From Pseudomonadota bacterium (GTDB lineage: Bacteria > Pseudomonadota > Gammaproteobacteria > Berkiellales > Berkiellaceae), in NCBI GenBank assembly GCA_018242045.1, contig JAFECR010000023.1:15046-56403 (forward strand): a DNA stretch of 41,358 nucleotides. The letters are read 5' to 3'. How positions within the stretch are numbered: position 1 is the first letter of the stretch; the number at the start of each line of letters is the position of its first letter. Below are positions 292-15,922 of this stretch, one piece after another. Position numbers and translations under genes: made by a program. The notes beneath the pieces were generated by a model. It worked only from the letters and a program-made list of their open reading frames with translations, was not told the DNA's origin and did not search any database.

Positions 292-360
292 AAATTGGCT
301 CCCCGAGTGGGACGATTTTCGAACTTTTCGGGTTGAGATAACAGATACGTTAAATATCGG
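292..360 (+). repeat. tRNA-Asn-derived att-like repeat R1
   Basis: The repeat begins AAATTGGCTCCCCGA, identical to the complement of the tRNA-Asn 3' end at 15846-15858. It continues with an arm that includes TTCGAAC and GGGTTGAGAT, then a weaker block like GATACGTTAAATATCGG that is also seen after R2, R3 and R6. The left flank GTAAGTATTCTTAAT resembles those of R4 and R7. R1 is the leftmost unit boundary in the window. The stretch 361-543 after it holds no gene that I can support. Confidence 0.85.
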
Positions 361-543
361 AAATAAATTATTTAATATGCATTCTAATGGGGGAGCCTTC
401 AGCGCTCACGCTTGAAACTGAGTTGAGATATAAACTAGTTAACTTTATTTTAGATCCACTTCAGATACACTCGCGTGACCTTATACACTCTGACCTAAAA
501 GTATTTAAGCTCGCCATTCAGCTCTCCTTTTGAGGCATGCCTG

Positions 544-572
544 TTAGTTGAAAGCCTGTAATATTCTATAAT
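544..572 (+). promoter_or_regulatory. Putative promoter of the HD-GYP gene
   Basis: A perfect TATAAT lies at 567-572, with a weak -35 (TTAGTT, 544-549) 17 bases upstream. Transcription would start near 579. That leaves no room for a ribosome site before the ATG at 584 but suits the ATG at 608. Confidence 0.4.
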
Positions 573-607
573 AATAAATATATATGTTAAGGACTGTAGC
601 AATAATT

Positions 608-1663
608 ATGGTTGATAATAAAAACAGCAGTAAAAAAAGGAATGAAATTAATGCTATTTTCTTAGCAATTATCGAAAATACTTATGATGCTATCTTTGTA
701 TTTGATGTCACTCCTAATAAAGTTTGTCAAATATCATGGTGGAATAAAATATGCGTGAAAGAAACCGGTATCAATGAGAAGGATGCAATTGGTAAAACTA
801 TTTATGAAATTTTTCCTGAAAGATTACATGACCCGCTTATACAGGGTTTAAAAAAATGTTTGCAAGAAAAAAAGACCGATAATTTCGAAATAAATATTCG
901 TTTTATAAATAAAGAAGAATATTTTAATGTGACATTAATTCCACTGCTAAACAATAAAAATGAAGTTTATAAAATTATTGGAATCAGTCATAATCTGACT
1001 GATCATATTTTAAATGTGATGGGTTTGAAAAAATTAAATTCTATCTTAGAAGAAATTATTGGGGCGCTTGCTACTTTAGAGGAGAGACGTGATCCTTACA
1101 CGGCAGGTCACCAACGCCGAGTATGTGATTTAGCCAAAACAATTGCAGAGACTTATGGATTAGATGAGCACCAGATTCATTGGTTACGTTTTGCATCTTT
1201 AGTACATGACATTGGAAAAAATCATGTTCCTTCCGAGATTCTTACTAAACCAACATCCTTGACTCCTGCTGAATATGAAATCATAAAAGAGCATGTTGAA
1301 TCAGGTTATAAAATTTTAAAGACTATAAGTTTTCCTGGACCTATAGCTGATATTGTTTATCAACATCATGAGTTTATAGACGGCTCAGGATATCCGCGAG
1401 GTTTAAAAGAAAATGAAATCTGTATAGAGGCAAAAATCTTAACAATTGCTGATATTGTAGAGGCAATGAGTTCACACCGACCTTATCGAGCAGGTAGAGA
1501 AATTAATGCTGCTTTAGATCAGATTCGCATGTGGAAAGGAATTAAACTTGACCCCAAAATCGTAGATGCATGCATTCAAGTATTTGATGAGGGTTATCAA
1601 TTTATCGAATATAGTAAACCACTTTCCCAGATAATAATTGAAGAATCGCTAAGTAGAGAATAA
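608..1663 (+). CDS. PAS and HD-GYP domain protein (cyclic-di-GMP phosphodiesterase-like)
   Basis: HD-GYP proteins are metal-dependent phosphodiesterases that usually hydrolyse cyclic di-GMP. Counting from the ATG at 584, a PAS-like sensor covers about residues 22-140 and the HD-GYP domain about 160-345. The metal-site and signature motifs are visible: GHQRRV (175-180), VHDIGK (207-212), the EH pair near 236-237, HHE (261-263) and DGSGYPRG (266-273). There is no signal peptide or membrane segment, so it is probably a soluble cytoplasmic sensor-effector. I prefer the ATG at 608, since AAGGA at 589-593 precedes it and the predicted promoter sits too close to the ATG at 584. It is the only gene between R1 and R2, so it looks like single-gene cargo. 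The ligand of the PAS domain cannot be told. Confidence 0.85.
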   Translation: MVDNKNSSKKRNEINAIFLAIIENTYDAIFVFDVTPNKVCQISWWNKICVKETGINEKDAIGKTIYEIFPERLHDPLIQGLKKCLQEKKTDNFEINIRFINKEEYFNVTLIPLLNNKNEVYKIIGISHNLTDHILNVMGLKKLNSILEEIIGALATLEERRDPYTAGHQRRVCDLAKTIAETYGLDEHQIHWLRFASLVHDIGKNHVPSEILTKPTSLTPAEYEIIKEHVESGYKILKTISFPGPIADIVYQHHEFIDGSGYPRGLKENEICIEAKILTIADIVEAMSSHRPYRAGREINAALDQIRMWKGIKLDPKIVDACIQVFDEGYQFIEYSKPLSQIIIEESLSRE

Positions 1664-1792
1664 AAAAGAAAAGGGCCAAGTATTCTTGTTTGCAAATAAA
1701 CATGAGATGAAGAACACATGACCCCTTCTCTATCTTAAACAAAGCATACCAGGTAAGCATTCTGAATGTGTCCGGAACGGACCGAATAATTA

Positions 1793-13459: not shown

Positions 13460-13495
13460 GTGTTTTAGGTAGTTTAGGTGACAAGGAGTAGATTT

Positions 13496-14548
13496 ATGCA
13501 AAATTTAACAGATCCAGAAGGGGAAATCCTGCTTTATCAAACTGAGGATGGGCAAACCCGAATCGATGTAAGGTTAGTAGGGGATGATGTTTGGCTGACG
13601 CAAATGCAGATGACAGAGCTATTTCAAAAGGATAAACGAACGATATCAGAGCATATCCAGAACGTGTTTTCTGAGGGGGAATTAAGTCCAGGGGCAACTG
13701 TCCGGAATTTCCGGACAGTTCAAAAAGAGGGACAAAGAGAAGTATCAAGAGAGCTAACTTATTATAATCTAGATGTTATTATTTCAGTTGGTTATCGAGT
13801 AAAATCACATCGTGGTACCCAATTTCGCATATGGGCAACGCAGCGCCTTAAAGAATACCTCGTCAAAGGCTTTACGATGGATGATGAGCGTTTGAAGCAG
13901 ATTGGAGGTGGCAATTACTTTGATGAGCTGCTTTCTCGTATCCGCGATATTCGCTCATCAGAAAAAGTTTTTTGGCGTAAGGTATTAGACATTTATGCGA
14001 CCAGTATTGATTATGATCCCAATATTGAAATAACCAAAGAATTCTTCAAAATGGTACAAAATAAAATGCATTGGGCGGCGCATGGCCGTACTGCTGCTGA
14101 AGTCATTTATGAAAGAGCAAATGCTGAGAAACCGAATATGGGGCTGACCACATGGAAAAAAGGGATAGCGCCATCACGTAGCGATGCAGAGATAGCAAAG
14201 AATTATTTGAGTGAAGAAGAGTTAGATATTTTAAATCGGCTAGTTTCAATGTATTTAGACTTTGCTGAGCTTCAAGCAAAAAGTAAACGCCCTATGTATA
14301 TGGGGGAATGGGTCCAAAAATTAGATGACTTTATAAAGTTAAATGAGCGTGAAATTTTGACGCACGCAGGAAAAATAACGAATCAAAAGGCTAAAGATAA
14401 AGCTAATCTCGAATATGATAAATTTCGTGCTTTAACAAGTAGTAATCTATCCCCTGTTGAGGAGCACTTTTTGGAAGCGCTGGAGAAAACAAAAAAATTA
14501 GAGGGATCTGTTAAAGCCCAATCGAAAAATAAAGACGAACAAGAGTAG
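13496..14548 (+). CDS. RhuM family protein
   Basis: Family markers are WLTQMQMTELF, a VFSEGEL segment, YYNLDVIISVGYRVKSHRGTQFRIWAT (residues about 89-115) and a long helical C-terminal part containing the HGRTAAEVIYERA block. The ATG at 13496 follows AAGGAG (13483-13488) by 7 bases, and I prefer it over the GTG at 13478. At 350 residues it appears complete. RhuM was named from a Salmonella pathogenicity island gene. Its biochemical role is not settled, though it is common in mobile islands near Fic/Doc-type and restriction genes. The palindrome at 13696-13720 lies inside this gene. The recombinase gene begins 7 bases after its stop. Confidence 0.85.
   Translation: MQNLTDPEGEILLYQTEDGQTRIDVRLVGDDVWLTQMQMTELFQKDKRTISEHIQNVFSEGELSPGATVRNFRTVQKEGQREVSRELTYYNLDVIISVGYRVKSHRGTQFRIWATQRLKEYLVKGFTMDDERLKQIGGGNYFDELLSRIRDIRSSEKVFWRKVLDIYATSIDYDPNIEITKEFFKMVQNKMHWAAHGRTAAEVIYERANAEKPNMGLTTWKKGIAPSRSDAEIAKNYLSEEELDILNRLVSMYLDFAELQAKSKRPMYMGEWVQKLDDFIKLNEREILTHAGKITNQKAKDKANLEYDKFRALTSSNLSPVEEHFLEALEKTKKLEGSVKAQSKNKDEQE
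13696..13720. repeat. Palindrome inside rhuM, copy 3
   Basis: AACTGTCCGG and CCGGACAGTT are perfect inverted arms around a 5-base loop, encoding TVRNFRTV. It is shared with 111-135 and, with paired changes, 177-201. Confidence 0.7.
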
Positions 14549-14555
14549 TATATCG

Positions 14556-15889
14556 ATGGAATGCTTAAGAAGAAAATGTGTCACCTATACTAGGGTTTCA
14601 TCCAAAGAACAAGAAAAGGAGGGATTTTCGATCCCTGCTCAGCAAAAATTGCTAACTAGCTATGCAACAGAACATCAGCTTGCAGTAGTGAGAGAATTCC
14701 AAGATGTTGAGACAGCTAAGCAATCTGGGCGTAGCGGGTTTGCAGATATGCTCAATTTCTTTACGGCTAATAAAGATGTGCAAGTACTGCTTGTTGAGAA
14801 GACCGATCGCTTGTACCGCAATATTAAAGATTGGGTGACGATTGATGAATTTGATTTAGAAATACATTTCGTGAAAGAAAATGTGATTTTGTCTGATCAT
14901 TCAAAATCCAGCGAAAAATTCATGCATGGTATTAAAGTACTAATGGCCAAGAATTACGTTGATAACCTTTCAGAAGAAACCCGAAAAGGCATGACTGAAA
15001 AAGCGGAGCAAGGCATTTGGCCATCGTTTGCTCCTATGGGATATATCAATGTTGTTGCTGATAATGGTAAAAAGATCATAGTGCCTGATCCCGACAATTC
15101 CGCTTTGATTGGGAGCATTGCCAAGAAATTCTATCTGGCCGTTATACCAATGCAGACAAGCGTAAGAAGCGAGATTTCTCTTTTTCTGGGCTAGTTACCT
15201 GCGGCCACTGTCATTGCTCTTTGGTAGGTGAAATTAAAAAAGAAGAGTACATCTACTATCATTGTTCAGGCCATAAAGGTAAATGCCCTGAGCCTTACGT
15301 TAGAGAAGAAGTGCTAGAAAAGCATTTTAGTGATGTGATTAAAAAGCTTCACTTTCCACCAGAGGTACTTTCTTGGATTAAGGATGCACTGTTGTGCAGT
15401 AATGAAGACACTCAACGCTTTCATCAAGAAGCGATCACCAAACTACAAGCAGAGTATCAAAAGCTGGAGAGTCGCATACATACAATGTACGTCGACAAAC
15501 TTGATGGTAAGATCTTAGGGGACTTCTTTGATTCGATGTCTGCAAAATGGCGTGCTAAGCAATCCGAAATTCTACAGGCGATACAAACACATCAGAATGC
15601 TAACCAAAACTATATTGTAGAAGGTATCAAGCTCTTAGAACTCGCGCAAAACGCTTATAAACTCTTCATTCAGCAAGATCCAACGCAAAAACGCCGACTA
15701 CTCAATTTTCTAGTATCGAACTCGTATTGGGCAGGTAAAACCTTAAGGGTAGAACTGAAGAAACCCTTTGATTTGCTTATGAAATTATCTGAGTTAACAG
15801 AACAAGAAATTAGGTTAGGAATGCTTAAAAAGCAGCATTTTGAAAATTGGCTCCCCGACGCGGATTCGAACCACGGACCCAGTGATTAA
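14556..15889 (+). pseudogene. Large serine recombinase with internal deletion and frameshift
   Basis: The resolvase domain is recognisable: YTRVSSKEQEKEGFSIPAQ with the catalytic Ser, then EKTDRLYRN and MAKNYVDNLSEETRKGM. Near 15134, after IAKKFYL, the sequence jumps frame to YTNADKRKKRDFSFSG, which leads straight into the zinc ribbon CGHC...HCSGHKGKC. About 100 residues between these parts are missing compared with family members. A helical region and LKKQHFENWLP follow. The last codons run into the tRNA-Asn gene (DADSNHGPSD). The element's own recombinase is therefore probably inactive. A second 3' copy lies at 7921-8165. Confidence 0.8.
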
Positions 15890-15922
15890 CAGTCACTTGC
15901 TCTACCGCTGAGCTATCGGGGA
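15848..15922 (-). tRNA. tRNA-Asn (GTT)
   Basis: A 75-base cloverleaf with encoded CCA: acceptor arms TCCCCGA/TCGGGGA, D-stem GCTC/GAGC, anticodon stem AGTGA/TCACT with loop CTGTTAA (anticodon GTT), and T-loop TTCGAAT. Discriminator G fits tRNA-Asn. Its 3' end is the attachment site shared by repeats R1-R7, and the tRNA remains intact next to the recombinase remnant. Confidence 0.97.

Follow-up and report, generated by a model that had tools for sequence, protein, structure and literature searches.

How do rows of small gene units come to stand side by side at a tRNA gene when most of them carry no recombinase? The question is raised by a 41,358-nucleotide stretch of a Berkiellaceae genome (Gammaproteobacteria; assembly GCA_018242045.1, contig JAFECR010000023.1, positions 15,046 to 56,403). 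This whole stretch of analysed DNA is referred to here as the window and corresponds to C15:15046-56403 of a 2.85-Mb genome in 45 contigs (genome code G000). Its left part holds seven copies of a repeat that begins with the end of tRNA-Asn. The reading favoured here, with reasonable confidence, is that cassettes stand in tandem, bordered by copies of one attachment (att) site, and that they were likely added singly to the tRNA-Asn 3' end through a large serine recombinase, probably acting mostly in trans.

The borders of the array and its presumed target are listed below.

295..339, plus strand: R1, candidate attachment-site copy (tRNA-Asn 3'-end complement plus recombinase-tail arm); left end of unit 1
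1792..1836, plus strand: R2, repeat copy
3184..3228, plus strand: R3, repeat copy
4596..4640, plus strand: R4, repeat copy
8154..8198, plus strand: R5, repeat copy
9261..9305, plus strand: R6, repeat copy
10349..10393, plus strand: R7, with a diverged arm (WLPIVDDLRTF in translation); left border of the unit that bears the recombinase
15848..15922, minus strand: tRNA-Asn(GTT), intact; presumed attachment target

The original prediction named seven repeats on one strand, and all seven are found at their predicted positions (GGCT at 297, 1794, 3186, 4598, 8156, 9263 and 10351), on one strand and on the 3' side of tRNA-Asn. The claim that each starts with the complement of the tRNA-Asn 3' end holds for 11 tRNA bases; the exact start TTGGCTCCCCGA is present in R1, R4 and R5 only, whereas R2 begins with ATGG, R3 with GTGG, and R6 carries CCCCGG. 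The tRNA part of the repeat consists of these first 11 bases alone, TGGCTCCCCGA, which represent the CCA end, the discriminator base and the acceptor strand in complement reading, and the idea that the following arm is itself a tRNA remnant was dropped for that reason. Well-kept borders show the last 11 tRNA bases (complement) and then the arm, with one or two base differences in a few copies. Mismatches to the 28-bp core number at most two in R1-R6 and eight in R7. The seven repeats are real and beyond chance, because their nhmmer E-values are low, from 2e-8 (R7) to 3e-22 (R4), and a backward-read control pattern has no matches in 55 genomes. One border holds an intact tRNA and the remaining ones hold tRNA 3' fragments, as is characteristic of tRNA-targeting islands. 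The units between the borders measure 1497, 1392, 1412, 3558, 1107, 1088 and 5497 bp, and the array extends beyond the left edge of the window, with two further copies to the left (C15:7339 and 9820).

The distribution of the repeat ties it to one tRNA gene. It is present in four of the 14 genomes of the host order, all of one family (G000, G003, G004 and G008), and in four of the 55 genomes of a wider draw. A partly degenerate exact pattern matched a single record, Gammaproteobacteria bacterium 39-13, in the genome_contigs collection (84,980 species, one genome each), from which records very near the window may be missing. Genome-wide searches with up to three mismatches place 21 of 24 copies within the four arrays. 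When up to eight are allowed in the stretches read, the four arrays account for 25 of 28 copies, all of these no more than 24 kb from tRNA-Asn and on the strand that points at it, in line with the prediction that the repeat is linked to tRNA-Asn and is not widespread. The array copies number three in G003, six in G004 and seven in G008. No minus-strand copies occur in the 12 stretches read, and none at up to eight mismatches in the tRNA-Asn stretches of G001, G002, G006, G011 and G013. The 5' side of tRNA-Asn is occupied by aspC in eight genomes (G000, G001, G003, G004, G006, G008, G011 and G013), while the 3' side is different in each. The 5' side of the tRNA matches in relatives; none was found in which the left flank of an array adjoins the tRNA. 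The 26 intervals between copies (25 in the tRNA arrays and one on C23) range from 455 to 9367 bp with a median of 1760 bp, and 14 are shorter than 2 kb. The main text of a comparative paper on Berkiella (PMC9803151) does not contain the terms integrase, recombinase, genomic island or mobile.

Homology between the arrays stops at the core. In blastn comparisons between arrays, with borders named by genome and position, shared unit starts begin 5-8 bp before GGCT. R4 (G000:19643) matches G003:20481 over 1336 bp at 84%, from -6 of GGCT; G003:20481 matches G008:17894 over 116 bp at 94%, and R4 matches the latter in the arm and a later Fic part only. G000:7339 matches G008:15112 over 319 bp at 71% and then over 561 bp at 87%, and R1 (G000:15342) matches G004:15878 over 209 bp at 78%. 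Shared unit ends run up to the arm, as far as +42: the end at G000:15342 matches G008:15112 (337 bp, 79%) and also G003:11114, and the ends of the last two units of G003 match each other (137 bp, 74%). The neighbourhoods of the shared starts and ends differ. The border G008:15112 joins the end seen at G000:15342 to the start seen at G000:7339.

Comparison of all 378 pairs of the 28 borders (300 bp on each side, core and arm excluded, score threshold 45) found the start alone shared in seven pairs, the end alone in three, and both in none. A Markov null reached a maximum of 36 in 541 comparisons, none of which attained the threshold; it was used in place of a first random-pair null, which scored up to 566 in what were taken to be overlapping or homologous windows. 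If an array had descended vertically, or if homologous blocks ran across borders, both sides would be expected to be shared, which is seen in none of the 378 pairs. The sharing of starts or ends, but never both, indicates that units have been joined and rejoined at the core, and shuffling of units is seen between species. The predicted repeated insertion of small, mostly recombinase-less cassettes at one shared site agrees well with this pattern.

The nature of the arm links the repeat to the enzyme. Three recombinase pieces are present in the window.

7920..8253, plus strand: serine recombinase gene, 3' fragment that stays in frame across R5 into the tail WLPEWDDFRTFRVEI
14556..15194, plus strand: large serine recombinase 5' piece with the catalytic domain (PF00239, E 9.9e-24; P0005 residues 6-210)
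15221..15889, plus strand: recombinase 3' piece in another frame, with a PF13408 zinc ribbon match

The two pieces at the tRNA, searched apart, supply the PF00239 and PF13408 domains of a large serine recombinase, and most of the 120 listed relatives of the G221 protein combine PF00239, PF07508 and PF13408. The window gene is broken, lying in two frames and lacking the part that matches approximately residues 211-267 of P0005. Its final residues, DADSNHGPSD, are encoded by the tRNA-Asn complement. The R5 fragment includes 246 nt that are 90% identical to 15613-15858 of the gene at the tRNA, and it continues in frame across core and arm.

In the frame set by the core TGG, the arm translates to WLPEWDDFRTFRVEI, often followed by LETVKxWPK or an ADTLNIGNK-like form. 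Stop codons in the three frames over 28 arms number 9, 34 and 49. Synonymous differences from the consensus amount to 129, against 93 +/- 7.5 expected for random placement, a value reached in none of 300 trials (maximum 114); the excess supports coding constraint but is not a clean probability, as the test relies on related copies with their consensus as the reference, which overstates its strength. Past the well-kept block, second codon positions hold the most information (permutation p 0.029).

Protein searches with the 109-amino-acid R5 frame returned 50 matches, including that of the window itself. Among these, P0122, from a 2632-base contig, has the recombinase end followed by the tail WLPEGDDFRTFRVEILETVKYW (81% over 97 amino acids), P0125 has the tail WLPTLDTFRTF (47% identity), and P0126 has WLPVVDSFRTL (45% identity). 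Counted by eye, an FRT tail occurs in four of the 50, including the window's own, and 32 of the 50 have a DSN-type tail of the kind that the tRNA complement encodes. The wider family comprises 6736 matches among 7996 candidates scored; the tails of the 120 matches listed include 41 of DSN type, 48 that end right after WLxx, two in another tRNA frame, and 29 that are unclassified. The recombinase gene is seen to overlap a tRNA directly in the window, in G221 and in G666, the latter two at tRNA-Gln.

The original prediction described the shared arm as non-tRNA. Its in-frame reading, the excess of synonymous change and the C-terminus of P0122 indicate that it is not neutral and encodes alternative C-terminal residues of the recombinase. 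The attachment site likely lies inside the 3' end of the recombinase gene, with integration swapping the tail, because the arm is recombinase tail and most relatives end in tRNA-coded residues. The R7 arm, WLPIVDDLRTF, resembles the P0126 type and may belong to another tail lineage rather than being a ruined copy. The heptamer TTCGAAC is found in both the tRNA T-arm and the repeat arm, shifted by 5 bp (by eye), a shift that may fit the attB/attP spacing of large serine recombinases; the idea was set aside.

A sequence of events that accommodates these features can be outlined. In the free circle, the recombinase gene would run through the core into the FRT tail, and at the circle joint the unit's own right end would meet its own left arm at TGGCTCCCC. 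Crossover with the tRNA would leave the tail codons at the far (left) end of the cassette and restore the tRNA, while the recombinase would gain a tRNA-templated tail. Cassettes lacking a recombinase would keep both half-sites, with the enzyme arriving on another element. The next insertion would occur at the restored tRNA end, so that units would stack away from the tRNA, and later recombination between cores could shuffle or delete them. A more general proposal, advanced tentatively and with rather less than even confidence, is that a family of bacterial serine integrases has its att site in its own 3' coding end, that a selected C-terminal tail exchanged for a tRNA-templated one acts as a switch between free and integrated states, and that the cut-off tail codons serve as the entry half-site of recombinase-free cassettes, giving integron-like arrays at tRNA genes.

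Within the window, recombinase coding sequence 5' of the core is confined to the R5 and tRNA borders, as predicted. Of the order's 14 genomes, G000, G001 and G002 have a resolvase domain; the 3.4-kb G001 locus contains no tRNA, and G002 has two small resolvases, neither with a tRNA in its locus. No resolvase-domain match occurs in G003 (98% complete, three contigs), G004 (96%, 70 contigs) or G008 (98%, two contigs), so the unit adjoining the tRNA carries no recombinase in any of these three; in G008 this unit is 455 bp long with no open reading frame (ORF) of 60 amino acids. No recombinase end is seen 5' of the core at most borders. Instead, 15 of the 28 borders have GTAAG or GTAAA within 32 bp upstream of the core, compared with a background of 6.8% (p 4.5e-11, for a motif chosen post hoc). 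Together, the missing recombinase ends and the GTAAG/A motif favour cassettes with two ends of their own and an enzyme that came and went. Mobilisation in trans is considered likely and is placed ahead of decay of complete elements.

Such decay could have produced much of the array and is the main rival. Under accretion, the model of the cis-mobilisable element (CIME), complete elements at tRNA-Asn lost their recombinase by deletion but kept their att ends, with nothing acting in trans. Decay of complete elements with later insertion at the site they occupy has been described for integrative mobilisable elements (IMEs), and tandems of this sort for these and for integrative conjugative elements (ICEs) (PMC5704250). 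Most units of the present arrays have both ends and no recombinase, a condition that fits loss as well as original absence. The coding signature of the arms implies that the cassettes descend from recombinase-bearing parents, and a recombinase remnant at R5, a shorter one of about 33 bp at G004:7691 and the broken recombinase at the window tRNA give right ends that fit decayed complete elements equally well. Accretion is judged unlikely all the same: most borders offer GTAAG/A in place of a recombinase 3' end, the tRNA-adjoining unit is recombinase-less in three of the four arrays, and the 455-bp unit would require near-total deletion between exact ends. A second alternative, that RecA-type homologous recombination between the repeats did most of the shuffling after a few original insertions, would suit the lack of a resolvase domain in G003, G004 and G008, and repeats of 45 bp may be long enough for such recombination. 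It cannot, however, create the borders, account for their identity with the tRNA end, or, without transfer, place units common to several genera in other contexts, and is very improbable. The notion of a dispersed element resembling repetitive extragenic palindromes (REP) or miniature inverted-repeat transposable elements (MITE), or of a gene-end relic unrelated to cargo borders, draws on the three copies away from tRNA-Asn (below) but is already disfavoured, to the point of being barely credible, by the same-strand tRNA-Asn arrays of four genomes, the halt of flank homology at the core and the tRNA end inside the repeat.

Besides the parental coding signature and the recombinase-derived right ends, several observations weigh against cassette insertion in trans at tRNA-Asn. 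Three of the 28 copies, two on C23 and one on C5, have no tRNA-Asn linkage, and G013 has CPT- and PNPOx-like genes comparable to those of unit 7 near its tRNA-Asn with no repeat copy. Three of the seven start-sharing pairs rest on 35-38 bp only, two of them on a hairpin-like stretch of 38 bp that G000:9820 shares with G000:7339 and with G008:15112, and one on 35 bp. The hairpin-like stretch at the end of the tRNA-adjoining unit of G004 is similar (11 bp, by eye) to the flank of the tRNA in G001, so the right end of that unit may be native DNA. No circle, intact helper or strain-level gain or loss was seen, and the assumed attP has no significant palindrome. Decay of the arm with distance from the tRNA is not significant overall (p 0.33); the two correlate in G004 (p 0.019) and in G003, where there are only three points, and not in G000 or G008.

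Searches for a mobile or complete relative gave a sparse return. Nothing was confirmed in IMG/VR with the recombinase 3' piece, the repeat or the right-end motif. The 3' piece has one weak match in phages and two in plasmids, and the R5 tail has no match in plasmids. Within a class sample of 369, the 3' piece matched G000 together with G037, G104 and G221 (E up to 1e-8), and matches to the tail were limited to G000 and G008; within a phylum sample, P0005 matched four of 398 (E up to 1e-60). No second end of a complete relative was seen among G698, G666, G601, G221, G104 and G037. The stretches of G698, G601 and G037 contain no tRNA, contig ends lie too close in G666 and G221, and G104 has a recombinase relic beside tRNA-Asn with no second core copy.

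Each known system compared shares some of these features, judged for those with a citation from excerpts of the published descriptions. The closest kinds are additive flexible genomic islands (fGIs) and the Dehalococcoides ssrA islands. Additive islands, such as fGI1 of Candidatus Actinomarinales and fGI-2 of Methylophilaceae, likewise contain cassettes at tRNA genes and direct repeats of part of the tRNA (PMC7771536, PMC10872708; see also PMC5217437); units in Methylophilaceae range from 330 bp to 42 kb, and a cassette common to different genera is known. The excerpts name no serine recombinase, and the present repeat differs in its long arm coding for a recombinase tail. The Dehalococcoides islands combine the serine recombinase DsiB, an RNA-gene 3' target and tandem arrangement, with 20-bp repeats plus a 15-bp conserved motif, and 15 of 31 have no integration module (PMC3146451). 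They differ in their tmRNA target, T-loop insertion and six-gene module, and no tail swap is described in the excerpt. Staphylococcal cassette chromosome (SCC) elements also have recombinases at one gene's end and tandem elements, and pseudo-SCC, which has no ccr genes and is thought to depend on the recombinase of a neighbouring element, is the best precedent found for a recombinase-less tandem unit (PMC2900268). Their target, unlike that of the window, is the protein gene orfX, their hosts are staphylococci, and the pseudo-SCC described there measures 16.5 kb. The catalytic piece of the window recombinase has its best NCBIfam scores with CcrA and CcrB, far below the cut-off, and the target here is tRNA-Asn rather than ssrA or orfX.

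Other analogues involve tyrosine recombinases. The 'suicidal' archaeal integrases of the Sulfolobus spindle-shaped virus (SSV) type have a site in their own integrase gene, which is changed on integration (PMC8371274). They belong to the tyrosine family and their gene is split into inactive parts, whereas here the body would be kept and the C-terminal tail alone exchanged; the excerpt of that review confines self-disrupting recombinases to archaea. Tycheposons, to which the array had been likened, are tRNA-bordered cargo islands of 4-200 kbp with the tyrosine recombinase XerD, and short tandem units with a shared arm are not described in the excerpt (PMC10872708). The likeness stands as a loose analogy, with additive islands and ssrA islands closer; the border gene of the window encodes a serine recombinase, and its tyrosine integrase sits at tRNA-Val. 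Integron arrays are also rows of small gene units between recombination sites with a recombinase supplied separately, but they use the tyrosine recombinase IntI and attC hairpin sites, in contrast to the core seen here, which includes a tRNA end. Among 17 ORFs of the window array scanned with Pfam, with no IntI or attC model run, there was no tyrosine recombinase. The sources compared also include Islander (PMC4383910), an excerpt of PMC12884075 with nothing on serine integrases at tRNA genes, and an excerpt of a serine recombinase survey in which the word tRNA does not occur (PMC10083194). No description of a serine recombinase that swaps its tail for a tRNA-coded one was found in the literature covered, which consists of parts or listings of papers.

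The cargo of the units is diverse.

584..1663, plus strand: unit 1, PAS and HD (HD_5) domain protein (Pfam)
1922-2560, minus strand: unit 2, 212-amino-acid protein with no Pfam family
2589-3164, plus strand: unit 2, fatty acid hydroxylase (Pfam)
3368..4552, plus strand: unit 3, acyltransferase family 3 (Pfam)
4833..7857, plus strand: unit 4, Fic protein (SoFic-like), APH-fold kinase and DUF2971 protein (Pfam, PADLOC)
8334..9170, plus strand: unit 5, methyltransferase (Pfam)
9402..10157, plus strand: unit 6, TylF-type methyltransferase (Pfam)
10659..14548, plus strand: unit 7 apart from the recombinase, CPT-like kinase, PNPOx-like protein, DUF5681 protein, N-terminally shortened DUF3987 protein and RhuM-family protein

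Among ten proteins scanned, PADLOC models for defence or candidate-defence genes match Fic (SoFic), DUF2971 (PDC-S31) and RhuM (PDC-S05). The CPT-like and APH-like proteins are not called resistance proteins here, as they score far below the curated cut-offs (79 against 250 bits and 20 against 205, respectively). Several cargo types recur near tRNA-Asn in the family: Fic in two units of G000 and in G003, G008 (remnants) and G002; a DUF1543 protein beside the tRNA in G000 and, in G004, as the sole gene of a unit; and an AlbA/Schlafen-type protein beside the tRNA in G000 and as a broken copy in G008. The unit 6 methyltransferase has a homologue (64% amino acid identity) left of the array in G003.

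Further features lie in or near the arrays. A 3' relic of a Fic gene at 10518-10569, directly right of R7, is 85% identical to 5790-5841. The RhuM gene contains a 30-nt near-palindrome (13694-13723) that recurs at 109-138 (97%) and more weakly at 175-204, both in the unit end left of R1, and G003 and G008 have similar palindromes in their matching unit ends. The 38-bp hairpin-like stretch mentioned above (AACACGGA...TTCCGTGTT) lies at L001:7498-7535 and L001:9944-9981, near the starts of units 7339 and 9820, and again near the start at G008:15112; it is possibly a terminator or regulatory stem. In unit 9820-15342, IS66-like genes (by eye) at L001:11609-12810 interrupt a short-chain dehydrogenase gene, uninterrupted copies of which are found in G008, G001 and G002. 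A partial tRNA-Asn fragment in G001 (C43; L085:8484-8540), away from that genome's intact tRNA-Asn, is preceded in frame by a recombinase-like end (by eye). A second integration site is located near the array, where tRNA-Val is followed by a tyrosine integrase gene (PF00589, 27343-28779; the pair spans 27189-28779); the same pair occurs beside tRNA-Val in G008, at 86% amino acid identity. A 757-amino-acid protein encoded at 22862-25135 has weak matches to tyrosine/dual-specificity phosphatases.

The arrays may pool defence or candidate-defence genes. If the proposed explanation is true, it would add a route to tRNA-anchored cassette arrays that relies on a serine recombinase and includes units as small as 455 bp. 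The tail exchange, if true, would provide a readable mark that distinguishes free from integrated recombinase genes, and would explain why the same tRNA-like residues end many recombinases in databases.

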